Program-made: the position numbers and the translations under genes
Notes under the pieces: model-generated
What the model saw: only the letters and a program-made list of their open reading frames with translations
Databases searched by the model: none
What the model was told of the DNA's origin: nothing
Shown here: piece by piece, positions 7,268 to 60,692 of the stretch
How positions within the stretch are numbered: the first letter of the stretch is position 1
Layout of the letters: each line of letters begins with the position of its first letter
Assembly (NCBI GenBank): GCA_022432975.1
Contig: CM039509.1
Location: forward strand, 39,590,209-39,654,208
DNA length: 64,000 nt
From: Begonia masoniana
Lineage: Eukaryota > Streptophyta > Magnoliopsida > Cucurbitales > Begoniaceae
Reading direction: 5' to 3'

Positions 7268-8169
7268 AAAACGAAAAAATGGCTTCGAGAAGCCATTTTG
7301 TCGTTCGAGCGCTGAATACCCGAACAGGGGAGGGAAGCGCGAGCAGCGATTGACGGCCTCCTCACCGCATTTTTTCGACGTACTCCGACCAGACGACGTC
7401 GGCGATTCTAGGGCTACCATTTCTGGCCGTTTTCGCGCACAGGACAAAACGGTAGGTCCTCTTTTTGCCCTATTTTCGGCTCTGTTCGTGGCCGAGAGTG
7501 ACGAGCTGGTTTGAGCTCCGATCGTCGGCCGAAATTGGTTGCTTTCGGCGTGGGTTTGCCGACCCTTGGACAGCCTATGGTCGCCTTGGTCGTGAAGAGC
7601 CCTATTTGGGCAAAAACCAGCAAGCCCTGTTCGGGCAATTCGGGTTTTTGTTGTGTGTAGCCTCCGAATTTTTGTTAGGTTATGTTAATTGGATGTTAGA
7701 GCGATCGATTGGTAAAGAAATTGGTAGAATTGGATTGAAGTGGAAATTTTGGATATTTTAGGGTAAAAATCGGTTCTGTTTTTGAAGGATTTGGCCTAGC
7801 TATTGTTAATTGTTTTGAATTCTTTCTTGGTATGTTAAACTAGGTTATTAGAAGAGTACGTGGCCGCTGGAATTGTCGATTCCGATAACCAACACAAAAG
7901 TTACGCGCGTCTGAAGTTTCGGGTTGGTTTTTACCGAACCTGATTTAGTGGCCCGTCTAGTTCGGTTTTAGTTGGCTTAGGCTAGAAATAGTAGTTTGAA
8001 AGTAAATTGGTGAATGCAAGCTTAATTTTAATGAAGTTTGAATGTTTGTCGTAGGTCGAGCCGTAGGTGGACAGGGAACTGAGCATCCTCAACGAACTAG
8101 GACGCCAGGTAAATAGAAGTGTGGTTGAGAATGTTTGAGAGTCGCCCAGAAGGGCCTACACCACAGTTG
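7268..8169 (+). mobile_element. LTR copy B, 5' unique part with micro-exon and donor
   Basis: This contains the second hairpin (7279-7296), then unique sequence. An exon-like 54-nt segment at 8055-8108 is bounded by GTCGTAG| upstream and CCAG|GTAAAT downstream. The motif CCTACACCAC lies at 8155-8164, preceded by the small inverted repeat GCCCAGAAGGGC. The 19714-19850 part of the related element is almost the same. Confidence 0.65.
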
Positions 8170-9866
8170 TTTGCATGTTGTGAGTCGTGATTAGTCGGTA
8201 TGTGGCGTGGATGTGAAGTCGTCGTTGGTTGGTTATGGTATGCAGGTTATGAGTCCTAGGTACGTGTGTGATGTGATGGGAATGTGTAGTCATCGTTAGT
8301 AGTATGTTGTGAGTCTTGTGCAGGTTATGGGTAGTGGTACGTACGTTATGAGTCTCGTGCTGGTTATGGGTAATGGTATGTATGTTATGAATCTTGTGCA
8401 GGTTGTGGGTGAGTTGTACGTAGGTGTTGAGTATCGTGTAGGTTGTTGGTCATATGTGTGTAGGTTGTGAGTCTTGTACAGGTTGTGAGCCAGTTTTGTG
8501 TACGTTGTGAGTCATGTGTAGGTTGAGGGCTAGTTGTGGATAGGTCATGAGTCCTGTGCAGGCTGTGGGCCAGTTTTGTGTAGGTTGTGAGTTTTGTGCA
8601 GACTGTGGGTCAGTTTTGTGTAGGTTGTAAGTCTTGTGCAGGTTATGGGTTAGTGATAAGTATGTTACGAGTCTTGTACTGGTTGTGGGTTAGTGGCACG
8701 TATGTTATGAGTCTTGTGCAGGTTATGGGTTAGTGGTACGTACATTATGAGTCTTGTGCTGGTTATGGATTAATGGTATGTATGTTATGAGTCTTGTGCA
8801 GGCTGTGGGAGAGTTGTACGTAGGTTGTGACTATCGTGTAGGTTGTTGGTCAGTTGTGTGTAAGTTGTGAGTCTTGTGCAGGTTGTGGGTCAGTTGTACG
8901 TCAGTTGTGAGTTTTTTTGCACGTTATGGGTTGTAGGCACGTTTGTGATGTGATGCGTATGTGGAGTCGTAGTTAGTTGATTGTGATGCGTATGTGGAGT
9001 CGTAATTAGTTGATTATGGTCAACATGCATCATGTTTTAAAAGCTACGCAAAATGTTTTGAGAATGTTTTTAAGCACGGAGGGAGAGTAGTGGAGGTGAG
9101 GTACAGTGTGGACAAGCGAGAGTGGGCTGGAGTGTGACTGTGGGCCCCACTTCCGGGACGAGCTGGAGCGGTGGCGATGTGTTGGTGGTAGTGCGGTGTA
9201 TTAGCTGACTGCCCCGGGTGATTGCACTTCGAGTCGATACAGTGGCTGTAGTGTAACCTGTGGGCCCCGCTTCTGGACGAGCTGGAGCAGTGCCGACGTG
9301 CCGATGGCAGTGCGGTTTATTGGCCGACTGCCCCAGGCAGTTGCACTTCGAGTCAAGACAGTGGCTGGAGTGCGACCGTGGGCCCCGCTTCTGGGACGAG
9401 CTGGAGTGGTGACGACGTGCCGATGGCAGTGCGGTGTATTGGCCGACTGCCCCGAGCGGTTGCACTTCGAGTCGAGACAGTGGCTGGAGTGTGACCTGTG
9501 GGCCCCGCTTCCGGGACGAGCTGGAGCGGTGGCGACGTGCCGATGGCAATGCGGTGTACTGTCCGACTGTCTCTTGCGGTTACGTTTCGAGTCAGGACAG
9601 GGGGTTTTGGGTTTGACTTATGGACCCCGTTCTTGGAAGAACCGGGACTGCGGTGACGTGCCGGTAAACAGTGTGTGTACGGACTGGCTGCCCGGTGCGG
9701 TTACATTCTAAACCTTGGTGAGATGCGATGCGATGCGGTGAGATGATGACAACGTGTGTAGAGACCTACATGTGTTAATATTGCATAACCAATTTTCATG
9801 CTTCACGTTTATTTTTCAGCACTTTACTTGCTAAGCTTTGAGCTTACGGTGTGTTCTGTGGTGTAG
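8109..9866 (+). other. Putative LTR intron with self-complementary ends
   Basis: Donor-like CCAG|GTAAAT at 8108/8109; acceptor-like CTGTGGTGTAG|GT ends at 9866. The near-donor motif CCTACACCACAG (from 8155) is the reverse complement of CTGTGGTGTAGG at the acceptor, a 12-bp match. The intron would include the degenerate 40-bp array and four GC-rich 120-bp repeats (about 9120-9590). Confidence 0.45.
8170..8935 (+). repeat. Degenerate 40-bp tandem array in copy B
   Basis: Diverged relatives of the 40-bp unit (GAGTCTTGTGCAGGTTGTGG and variants). Compared with the homogeneous array of copy A this one is old and unamplified, so array expansion happened in only one of the two copies. Confidence 0.85.
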
Positions 9867-58518: not shown

Positions 58519-59993
58519 TGATAAGTGTGTATTTTACACACTTTATTGTACTTTTTAATACTTGAATTAATGAGTTTTACTCAAGTTTATTATGAAACTT
58601 CTGATATATTTGGTGAGTGTGCAGACAAATTAATTAAAACAGGAAAAAGAAAGAAGCTGAAGAAGAAAGACAGTTGAAGATAAGAAAAAAAAGGAGGAAA
58701 TCGAACTCCATCCATCCATGCGATCGATTGCTACAAATAACAGAAATCGATCGCCATTCATATGGAAAAGCAGCCAGCGATCGATCTCTATACAATACAG
58801 AAATCGATCGCCGTACATGAAGAGAAAGCAAACCGATCGCTGCACATTAAAGAAACCGATCGCCACACATATTTGAAGGCAGCAGCGATCGATCTCTATG
58901 AAATGCAGAGATCGATCGCTACACATATCACTACACAAGCTTTTGCAAAGAGATGCCGCGATCGATTTCTGTAACTTGTCAGAGATCGATCGCCTATCAC
59001 TCTAGATATGGAAAGACGATGTGTTTTAATCTGAACCGTTCAATTGAAGACAGATCTAATCTCAACCATTGATCAGCTTAAAGAAAATTATAAAACCTAA
59101 GGCAGCAGACCTAAAAGAGAGATCCGGAGCAAATCTAGAGGCCGCGACGGAGAGCACCACCGAGCGAATTCTTCGACGAGGAGGGGCGATCATTCTTCAT
59201 AGTTTTCTTTTCCTTTCTTTTTAATTTCACTATTTAATTATGCAACTCTTTATTATTATTGTTGTTTATTTTTATTCTAGCATGAACTAAAACGTTTGTT
59301 CTAGGGTTTCGATGTAGCTTTACTATGATTGTTTATTTTTCTTGATTCAAGTATTTAATTTTCTGTTTCTGTTCTGTGTTTGAGTAATTTATTCTGAACG
59401 TAATGCTTAGGTTTGATTGATCACCAAAACTAAGAACTTTAGGGTTGATTCGGGATGCGAGAGCGGAGAATTTAACCGTGCACTGAATAGTTTGCCATGA
59501 AAAGGATGTTAGGCTAGAGATAGCTAATGCGTTCATGTGGTAGTATAATTTCTCATTCTTAATGTATTCAATTAATTCTCAGGATTAGAGACCGAGAGGT
59601 AATAATTCGTTAATTGAATAAGTTTATTTTTGCTCGAGAGAGATTGATAAATATTTTCGTGAAATTGCCATCAACACGAAGAAATAGAATTTAATTACTT
59701 GAATTAGGTTTAATAAATAGGATTAGTTAAGTGAAATCGGAACCCTGGAATTTTCTCATCATATAATTTTACTATTTTACATTTAAGTCTTTTATTTGAA
59801 TTGTTGATTGATTTTCAGTTGAATTAATTTAGTTTAAAATCCAAAAATTACTTATTATTTCTTTTCAAATTAAACTAATAATTAGATATTCAATATTTAA
59901 CATAATTATTCCTCGTGGGATCGACACTCGTACTTAATATACACTTTATTACTTTTGCGACACGTGCACTTGCGTATACGATTTTTCGCAACA
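58519..59993 (+). mobile_element. 3' LTR of the Athila-like element
   Basis: A copy of 51917-53391 with constant offset 6602 and the same length, ending TTTTTCGCAACA followed by the TTAAT duplication. Confidence 0.92.
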
Positions 59994-60692
59994 TTAATAC
60001 ATGAGCAGTCATGTTTAGACATTGATATAGAATAGTTTAAAAGATAATATTTGTAGGACATTTGCATGTGTATGAAAATGATGGAATTGACAAAAATTAC
60101 GTAATAGCAAAGCTTGAACGTTGAAAGTAAAAGTAAAAGTAAAAGAAGACGAAGTCATGAGATAACTAAGTTTTAAAAGAAGGTTGACTTTCGATCAGTA
60201 TATAACAGTTAAGAGGATTCGGTAAAAGTACATGTTTTGCAACTGCACGTATTCTCACTTACTGAGTTTATTTCACCTTATTTATTATTGTGATTTAGGT
60301 GAATTTTTATCTAATGAAGAAATAGCTGCGATTGATCAGCTTTTAGTAGCAAGCGAACATACAGATGAAGAAAATATTGTTGAGTTCGAGGAAAAAGATT
60401 TAAATTAGTACGCTTTAATTTTCAAATGATATTTAATATTTTATTTCAGTTCAAGACTTGAATGATTATGTTGAATTTTATTATTAAATAAAATTTCATT
60501 AATTGTTTTTAATTATGTGATGGTTTCAAGATTTTGACAAATTTATTACAAAGCTTCCGAGAAATTAAAGTTTTTAGTTAATATTTAAATTTTTAAATTA
60601 TGATCTAGCATTCGATTTTAAATCAATTTTGGAAAAAATTTTAGTGTTTTCAAAATTAAGGTTTTAAATTAAGAATTTTTAAATTGGGGCGT
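59994..60692 (+). mobile_element. Old LTR, right part
   Basis: Continuation of 50635-51911. Acceptor-like ATTGTGATTTAG|GTGAAT ends at 60298. It ends near TTGGGGCGTCCA (about 60692), resembling the GGGGCGTCACA ends of other LTRs here. Net putative intron (51819-60298 minus the insertion) is about 400 nt. No ORF supported. Confidence 0.5.

Follow-up and report, generated by a model that had tools for sequence, protein, structure and literature searches.

How plant LTR elements separate their genomic RNA from mRNA is an open question. It is raised by a stretch of DNA from Begonia masoniana (GCA_022432975.1, contig CM039509.1, positions 39,590,209-39,654,208 of the forward strand; the 64,000 nt are called the window below) whose LTRs carry an intron-like module with complementary ends. 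All 11 window copies have a GT donor, a CCTACA-type 5′ arm at a distance of 28-46 nt from the donor, and a complementary 3′ arm (Table 1). A sequence-only reading had listed 11 such pairs of arms, and all of them exist. Its two matches of 15 out of 15 (12030/12469 and, on the minus strand, 40202/39728) are real, and the base after the CCTACA-type motif (C, T or A) is indeed compensated in all 11 copies, by G, A or T respectively, as judged by eye and allowing for insertions in the arms at 41076 and 51858. The borders were described too uniformly: the donor is AG/GT in eight of 11 copies, but AA/GT at 40244(-), 41043 and 22915(-), and the 3′ end is TAG/GT in nine of 11, but TAT/GT at 29341 and TAC/GT at 22327(-). 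That all long LTRs share the module was too broad a statement, since neither a P3-like motif nor GTAAGT was found in the 1,475-bp LTR of the element at 51917-59993. Absent from that reading were two further helices that flank the long-range helix of the arms (P2), a hairpin P1 ahead of the 5′ arm and a hairpin P3 ahead of the 3′ arm.

Table 1 Module copies and leader features in the window
Feature	Position	Strand	Details
F1a intron-2 module	8109..9866	+	donor 8109; P2 5′ arm from 8156, 3′ arm to 9866
F1a hairpins	P1 8144-8155; P3 9832-9846	+	P1 GCCC-AGAA-GGGC; P3 TAAGCT-TTG-AGCTTA
F2a intron-2 module	12002..12482	+	donor 12002; P2 5′ arm from 12031, 3′ arm to 12482
F2a hairpins	P3 12447-12461	+	P3 TTAGC-ATTAG-GCTAA; P1 imperfect
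F1b	19778..27314	+	donor 19778; 5′ arm 19824; 3′ arm end 27314
F7	22327..22915	-	donor 22915 (AA/GTAAGT); 5′ arm ~22879; 3′ end mutated to TAC
F7 P3	22363-22349	-	TAAGC-ATTAG-GCTTA
F3a	24616..25223	+	donor 24616; P1 24639-24648 (GCC-GATA-GGC); P3 25187-25202 (TGAGAT-TTTT-ATCTCA)
F4	28655..29341	+	donor 28655; P1 28680-28689 (GCC-TTCG-GGC); P3 29305-29319; 3′ end mutated to TAT
Candidate third leader intron of F2b	38473..38532	-	3′ of the primer site; predicted
F2b 5′ LTR	38616..40776	-	TGTAACACC...GGCGTTACA
F2b module, in 5′ LTR of Tekay/Del-type chromovirus	39729..40244	-	donor 40244 (AA/GTAAGT)
F2b helices	P1 40225-40216; P2 from 40215, end 39729; P3 39764-39750	-	P1 GCC-TTCG-GGC
F2b exon 2	40245..40296	-	short exon of the leader, flanked by intron 1 and the module; predicted from splice-site motifs
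F2b intron 1	40297..40503	-	GTGAGT...TTTTAG; predicted from splice-site motifs
F5a	41043..41652	+	donor 41043 (AA/GTAAGT); arm 41076, one extra G; P3 imperfect
F3b	44575..45138	-	donor 45138; 5′ arm ~45107; P1 GCC-GATT-GGC; P3 44611-44596
F5b	46150..46759	+	donor 46150; arm 46184; P3 degenerate
F6	51819..60298	+	donor 51819 (GTTAGT); arm 51858, one extra T; 3′ arm end 60298

The long spans of F1b (19824/27306, 7.5 kb) and F6 (51858/60289, 8.5 kb) are inflated by inserted DNA, in F1b together with tandem arrays and in F6 by the young nested element at 51917-59993. No P3 was identified in F6, and intron 1 is apparently absent from F5a. In F2b, RT, RNase H, integrase and SH3_Tf2-1 were detected together with TG...CA LTR ends and a primer site. 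No chromodomain is listed among its Pfam matches; it presumably has a chromodomain-type C terminus, and we take it to belong to the Tekay/Del clade. The module LTRs probably belong to a large group of such Tekay-type chromoviruses, with the clade features read in F2b only. The candidate third intron of F2b has its acceptor, ATACAG, 12 nt ahead of a gag ATG at 38460; a similar donor and acceptor are present in the genome locus L022 and a similar donor in L097.

One part of the module has 24,864 matches in the same plant genome. From 91 copies (81 from the genome, 10 from the window; median span of the module 565 nt) we built 36 families, all from this one species and with F1 and F3-F6 represented by their window copies. 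The genome copies remained from 90 loci after removal of three without the P3 pattern, five without an arm and the false arm of L023; the arm of L072 was reset manually. Donors were searched with at least six of eight consensus letters, and arms by CCTACA (at least five of six letters) and the best match to TGTAGG. Because the arms were located in this way, pairs 1-5 of P2 carry no evidential weight.

The other pairs of P2 are informative; this helix of ~13 bp encloses a loop of some 0.4-1.8 kb. Pair 6, formed by the base after the CCTACA-type motif and its partner, is present in 35 of 36 families (23 T-A, 8 C-G, 2 A-T, 2 G-U), compared with 24.3±1.5 after shuffling, and pairs 11, 12 and 13 also lie above their shuffles, in a permutation that ignores descent. 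The duplex energies of the 36 families sum to -539.6 kcal/mol with their own partners and to -371.8±17.0 with partners swapped between families; swaps confined to the same position-7 class give -429.7±15.4. In both cases none of 20,000 permutations, which likewise ignore descent, reached the own-partner sum. A candidate inner helix, P4, noticed by eye and joining the stretch that follows the 5′ arm to TTACT before P3, was rejected (own -291.3, permuted -295.9±13.2, P=0.63; 35 families). Since these neighbouring windows show no own-partner excess, they serve as a control that counts in favour of the fold.

Descent was taken into account in a blind covariation scan with a tree-based null of 60 alignments. 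The variable pair of P3 ranked first (E=0.00) and was alone in passing E<0.05; it is intact in 81 of 82 copies, as 36 A-T, 27 T-A, 17 G-C and one G-U. P2 pair 6 ranked third, with E=0.53 over ~46,700 pairs, and as a single pair named beforehand it reaches ~1e-5; P2 is significant only on such terms. Non-structural pairs are among the top ranks because a few large clades dominate. P1 also varies yet stays paired (GGTC/GACC in L040, GGCT/AGCC in L060, GCCC/GGGC in F1a). Unguided RNAalifold, run on 35 families (F5a omitted) with the two segments joined by a linker, recovers P1, P2 and P3 with an MFE of -34.5, compared with -25.2±1.2 in 20 half-swapped alignments. The step from compensatory change to RNA pairing therefore stands, with P2 pairs 6 and 11-13 above their shuffles and P1 and P3 changing while paired, and we regard pairing of the module RNA as well supported by these alignments. 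A hammerhead retrozyme was rejected as an identity of the LTR: its CUGAUGA and GAAA core occurs in none of the 36 families. An Rfam scan of 8000-64000 at the gathering threshold yielded no ribozyme, although a two-part fold could escape such a scan. The sole match in this range was a plant snoR71, away from the module.

The fold sits just 3′ of a splice donor. GTAAGT is 97-100% conserved across its six positions in the 36 families, whose donors were preselected at six or more of eight letters, and this end of the module has the appearance of a genuine donor. Few AUGs occur in the last 45 nt upstream of it (6 in 1,505 positions) and many in intron 2 (1,075 in 22,823); downstream of the module's 3′ end there is no such scarcity (46 in 1,470). 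Exon 3, past the AG, is purine-rich with a mostly open frame. In copies with the P3 pattern a branch-like CTNA lies 34-35 nt upstream of the intron end, and P3 pairs the branch-like A itself. The 3′ strand of P2 lies 3′ of this CTNA and takes up the final ~13 nt of the intron, including its AG. In 20 of 27 families another, closer AG intervenes, downstream of the branch-like site but ahead of TGTAG.

The two leader introns differ in what they have left in genomic DNA. Intron 1 was exactly removed in four LTRs, relatives of the F7 type, in which the donor is retained along with P1 and the 5′ arm. In two of them (L091, L097) the module's 3′ half was located as well; in L092 and L093 it was not found within ~1.5 kb, and so there is no evidence of a complete module in these two. 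The exon 1/exon 2 junction word has six matches at one mismatch or fewer versus 487 exon 1/intron 1 words. The exon 2/exon 3 word of one family has 10 matches, none of them a true junction by its letters, versus 11,519 exon 2/intron 2 words, and among genomic copies of this family no spliced junction of intron 2 was found at two tested acceptors. The loss rates are only roughly comparable, as they were counted with different words, and an intron 2 that is never lost need not be unspliced, because its spliced RNA might escape packaging. Of the proposed splicing role, the donor thus stands, whereas use of the module's 3′ end as an acceptor is not supported by the genomic copies of the family tested. 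An LTR protein spliced across exon 2 and exon 3 was considered and found doubtful, since in several families inspected by eye exon 2 contains stops in the frame of exon 3 and lacks an AUG. Direct splicing from the exon-2 donor to the gag-proximal acceptor may be possible, but this acceptor also has a close donor of its own.

We propose, with a probability of about one half, that the role of this RNA fold is to keep or mark the unspliced genomic RNA of these Tekay-type chromoviruses. The leader, with a TATA-like box upstream of its first exon, would consist of exon 1, intron 1, exon 2, the strong donor and then intron 2 with the fold near its start. The core would be built of three helices, the hairpins P1 and P3 and the long-range P2, whose loop content is free to vary. 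P2 would bury the terminal AG of intron 2 and P3 the branch-site-like CTNA, and the fold would exist only as long as intron 2 stays unspliced. It could then retain intron 2 in, or tag, the genomic RNA for reverse transcription; with intron 2 kept in the template the LTR would be copied whole, and RNA spliced from the exon-2 donor would be mRNA that leaves no DNA copies. If the AG served pairing only, there would be no explanation for why it still matches a splice site or why an open frame follows it. It is tempting to speculate further, and here we are distinctly more tentative, that the fold is a splice-sensitive RNA tag: a two-part fold in an LTR intron that hides its own 3′ end and so selects templates for reverse transcription. 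If true, this would explain why an intron is kept in the LTR while the neighbouring intron 1 is repeatedly lost.

The GT...AG ends with their conserved donor, the purine-rich open frame after the AG and the CTNA at 34-35 nt would befit an aid to splicing, in which P2 joins donor and acceptor like a yeast zipper stem, P3 acts as a downstream stem and the splice falls at TGTAG/GT. We consider this rather unlikely: the AG and the branch-like A are covered by the very helices that should help, most families offer a closer AG, and the one family searched has no true junction, yet junctions of intron 1 exist.

Unlikely as a full account, too, is a packaging or dimerisation signal, that is, a psi-like fold 3′ of the leader donor by which only unspliced RNA would be bound by Gag and reverse transcribed. 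The fold sits just inside the intron and would be lost on splicing; RNA spliced at intron 1 was apparently reverse transcribed, and a copy spliced at intron 2 was not found in the family searched. Pararetroviral leaders combine a packaging signal and a splice donor within a single stem-loop (PMC5902531). A fold whose two arms are separated by half a kilobase is nevertheless unlike known packaging signals, which we take to be local hairpins. Such a signal can coexist with the retention or marking of unspliced RNA that we prefer.

A stable basal stem around a long, AUG-rich leader loop also recalls the ribosome shunt of plant pararetroviruses, but this is very improbable, as AUG is rare upstream of the donor and the short uORF required just ahead of the stem (sought in unspliced RNA from the last 45 nt of exon 2, with its end within 30 nt of P1) is present in four of 36 families and missing in 32. 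Equally improbable is that the arms are the inverted ends of a DNA transposon inserted into the LTRs, or that they are alike purely by descent: they are inverted repeats close to the ends of a 0.5-kb segment, but inspection by eye showed no duplication beside them, P1, P3, the donor and their relative positions are conserved beyond or between the arms, and own arms pair better than swapped ones.

If the fold does keep or mark genomic RNA, the opening question becomes testable, since the donor fixes its place and the lost intron 1 is a built-in comparison. A family of structured RNA would be gained as well, and with half a kilobase between the two parts of the module it could escape covariance libraries. 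A survey of titles and abstract openings in the open-licence literature gave no description of a paired module or an intron within the LTRs of plants, which is weak evidence of novelty.

The retroviral packaging signal sits downstream of the major splice donor, and its structure is present in unspliced RNA only; the Begonia fold differs in being made of two distant segments, and a role of Gag is putative. With the caulimovirid leader (PMC5902531) it shares a basal stem, a long leader loop and a reverse-transcribing element, but the order of donor and stem differs and the shunt uORF is mostly missing. In Saccharomyces GT-AG introns (RPS17B and others; PMC12350175), zipper stems likewise place a long-range helix by the 5′ splice site, and downstream stems form a hairpin close to the branch site. 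These zippers link donor and branch site and leave branch site and AG free, whereas P2 ends on the AG and the branch-like A is paired; in addition, the Begonia module resides in an LTR and has tens of thousands of copies. RNA structure also joins the intron ends in the nonconventional introns of euglenids (PMC4770533, PMC6221363), which are without canonical borders, unlike the GT-AG module with its canonical donor in a plant retroelement. The partially spliced Ogre and the alternatively spliced BARE-1 (PMC6317226, PMC3735527) are plant LTR retrotransposons whose RNA is likewise found as spliced mRNA and unspliced; their introns interrupt or separate coding regions, whereas that of Begonia is part of the LTR itself and contains a conserved long-range fold.

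The module is the putative second intron of the LTR leader, which runs from exon 1 over intron 1, exon 2 and the donor GTAAGT to intron 2 and exon 3. A sequence-only reading had noted covarying arms, a CCTACA-type motif and its complement, at the ends of an intron-like module in long LTRs. Donor and 3′ end were set by direct reading for all 11 copies it listed in the window, which were sorted into seven LTR families (F1-F7); the two very long spans among its pairs are the product of inserted DNA. P1 is a hairpin of 3-5 bp before the 5′ arm, and its last base is the first C of CCTACA. 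Its loops include UUCG, AGAA, GAUA, GAUU, CUUAA and AUUAG, and its pairing is kept through changes (GGCC/GGCC, GGTC/GACC, GGCT/AGCC, GCCC/GGGC); the best-scored stem is deviant or mismatched in the window copies F2a and F6 and in the genome loci L001, L048, L056, L069 and L081. The long-range helix P2 starts from the second C and pairs with the final ~13 nt of the intron, among them the AG. The hairpin P3, 5-6 bp long, lies directly 5′ of the 3′ arm and reads TAAGCT/AGCTTA, TGAGAT/ATCTCA, TTAGC/GCTAA or TAAGC/GCTTA in window families that were not selected by pattern; F5a has an imperfect and F5b a degenerate version, and none was identified in F6. RNAalifold recovers P1, P2 and P3 unaided. 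A candidate inner helix failed the test of own versus exchanged arms and was rejected. Rfam gave no match to the module in a scan that could miss a fold with a half-kilobase loop.

The assembly searched comprises 795 Mb in 308 contigs. The pattern TTACTNAGCNTTNGGCTNA, which leaves both members of one stem pair free, has 24,864 matches in this genome and none when read backwards; in the 100 of these matches that were listed, all from contig C1, the free pair is T-A, A-T or G-C, with one G-T. Of 90 loci parsed, three had no P3 pattern, five had no 5′ arm and one was dropped for a false arm; one arm was reset by hand. The 81 genome loci and 10 window copies (F2b being counted as L001) make 91 copies, which reduce to 36 families at <85% identity; 27 of these derive from the genome, nine from the window.

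The covarying base of the sequence-only reading is pair 6 of P2, which is paired in 35 of 36 families (23 T-A, 8 C-G, 2 A-T, 2 G-U, one mismatch) versus 24.3±1.5 with shuffled partners. Pairs 11 (31/36, shuffled 20.1±2.0), 12 (30/36, 25.3±1.5) and 13 (30/36, 24.3±1.5) also exceed the shuffle, pair 14 is marginal (12/36, 8.4±1.8, P=0.03), and pairs 9, 10 and 15 have no clear excess in the 36 families. Pairs 7 and 8, paired in 34 and 31 of 36, are uninformative because their 3′ side is nearly invariant. In a blind scan of ~46,700 column pairs (309-column alignment, 82 copies, 60 tree-simulated alignments) only a P3 pair, at rank 1, was significant (score 85.0, E=0.00), and P2 pair 6 (rank 3, E=0.53) reaches significance only if taken as a pair specified in advance. 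A P1 pair, partly an effect of 3- versus 4-bp stems, took rank 2 (E=0.53), and P2 pairs 11 and 13 took ranks 5 (E=1.28) and 23 (E=10.4); non-structural pairs occupy rank 4 and the majority of ranks below 5, and they stand high because a few large clades dominate. Duplex energies sum up to −539.6 kcal/mol for own arms versus −371.8±17.0 for exchanged arms, and −429.7±15.4 when arms were exchanged within the same position-7 class; in both cases 0 of 20,000 permutations reach the own value, and in 31 of the 36 families the own partner is better than the average of the exchanged ones. We regard the existence of a paired RNA fold as nearly certain.

The element that hosts F2b has reverse transcriptase, RNase H, integrase and Tf2-1-like SH3 domains; among the domain matches listed for it there is none to a chromodomain model. 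The named proteins among its best 120 of 7,989 protein matches are mostly plant reverse-transcriptase proteins, and the element probably belongs to the Tekay/Del clade. Its two LTRs are not comparable at the module owing to an assembly gap. That all long LTRs carry the module does not hold, since the LTR of a nested element lacks it.

Features in the window (window coordinates)
Feature	Position	Strand	Remarks
5′ LTR of the F2b host element	40776 to 38616	minus	module copy inside
Assembly gap, 100 N	33332-33431		in 3′ LTR of the F2b element, where the module would sit
Nested LTR element, very young	51917-59993		LTRs 51917-53391 and 58519-59993, 100% identical over 1,475 bp; TTAAT on both flanks
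Long gag-protease frame	53531-56002		in nested element
Match to plant snoRNA snoR71 (Rfam)	54089-54195	minus	65.8 bits, gathering 40; antisense to nested gag frame
Acidic 15-codon frame	at 9867, 12483		also in genome loci
Acidic 15-codon frame	at 39728, 44574	minus	also in genome loci
52-bp tandem unit, ~44 copies	12577-14854		F2a LTR; short tandem unit also in L021, L033
Duplication (97%)	22720-23013 / 23274-23564		F7; doubles exon 2 and module 5′ half
Second donor of F7 duplication	~23469	minus	
Candidate small intron	38473-38532	minus	primer site to gag ATG; similar arrangement in L022, similar donor in L097
Long 18-bp tandem array	918 to ~3670		strong G/C skew
Simple repeat	5537-7684		reads as lysine run on minus strand

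Upstream of the module lie a TATA-like box, exon 1, which is rich in pyrimidines, intron 1, and exon 2, which is short and mostly ends in CAG before the donor. In 35 families, the 45 nt before the donor contain six AUG in 1,505 positions and intron 2 contains 1,075 in 22,823; such scarcity before the donor would be predicted for a leader that ribosomes scan and that the donor closes. No depletion is seen in these families beyond the module's 3′ end (46 in 1,470, further on 109 in 3,430). An acidic open frame follows there; in 24 of 36 families its stop lies at codon 15 (TAG 15, TAA 7, TGA 2), and no AUG start codon was found ahead of it. This stretch may be an exon that is translated, or else a splicing enhancer rich in purines.

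Loss of intron 1 is recorded in DNA. With the joined exons 1, 2 and 3 of an F7-type leader as query, 40 hits were scored of 1,017 candidates. Four LTRs (L091, L092, L093, L097) matched contiguously over exons 1 and 2, and the remaining 36 hits matched exon 3 only. In these four, intron 1 is gone exactly between its GT and AG, and the intron-2 donor, a P1-like hairpin and the 5′ arm follow; the 3′ half of the module is present in L091 (49/50 letters of a relative) and L097 (42/50); the ~1.5 kb examined in L092 and L093 did not show it. The word across the joined exons 1 and 2 has 21 matches at ≤2 mismatches (two exact, four at one, 15 at two) versus eight for the word read backwards, and the exon 1-intron 1 word has 487 versus none. 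L066, beside its sibling L068, and F5a look like further copies without intron 1, L084 is possibly another, and L075 was flagged in the same way, although its own sequence does not settle the loss. The word across exons 2 and 3 has 10 matches, all at two mismatches (control 2): eight carry GTAA instead of GTGA and are altered donors, and the other two read CTTGAAGA. An alternative acceptor, ATAG before TTTG, gave two matches at three mismatches, neither with exon 2. The exon 2-intron 2 word has 11,519 matches (control 0), so that an equal loss rate of ~1% predicts on the order of 100 copies without intron 2, a comparison of the two introns that is only rough because the words differ in breadth.

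RNA without intron 1 was reverse transcribed; in the one family tested, no trace was detected of RNA that had lost intron 2. We propose, with a probability of about 0.5 for the statement as a whole, that the fold retains or marks unspliced genomic RNA. It would block splicing in the RNA that becomes the template or, alternatively, would be needed for packaging or reverse transcription. The main rival is a zipper-stem reading, according to which the fold helps splicing.

In the literature consulted, none of the systems compared unites an intron inside the LTR with a paired terminal AG and such a copy number. One aspect is common to the module and yeast zipper stems with downstream stems (PMC12350175), and likewise to euglenid introns (PMC4770533, PMC6221363), Ogre and BARE splicing (PMC6317226, PMC3735527), pararetroviral leaders (PMC5902531) and sunflower isoforms.
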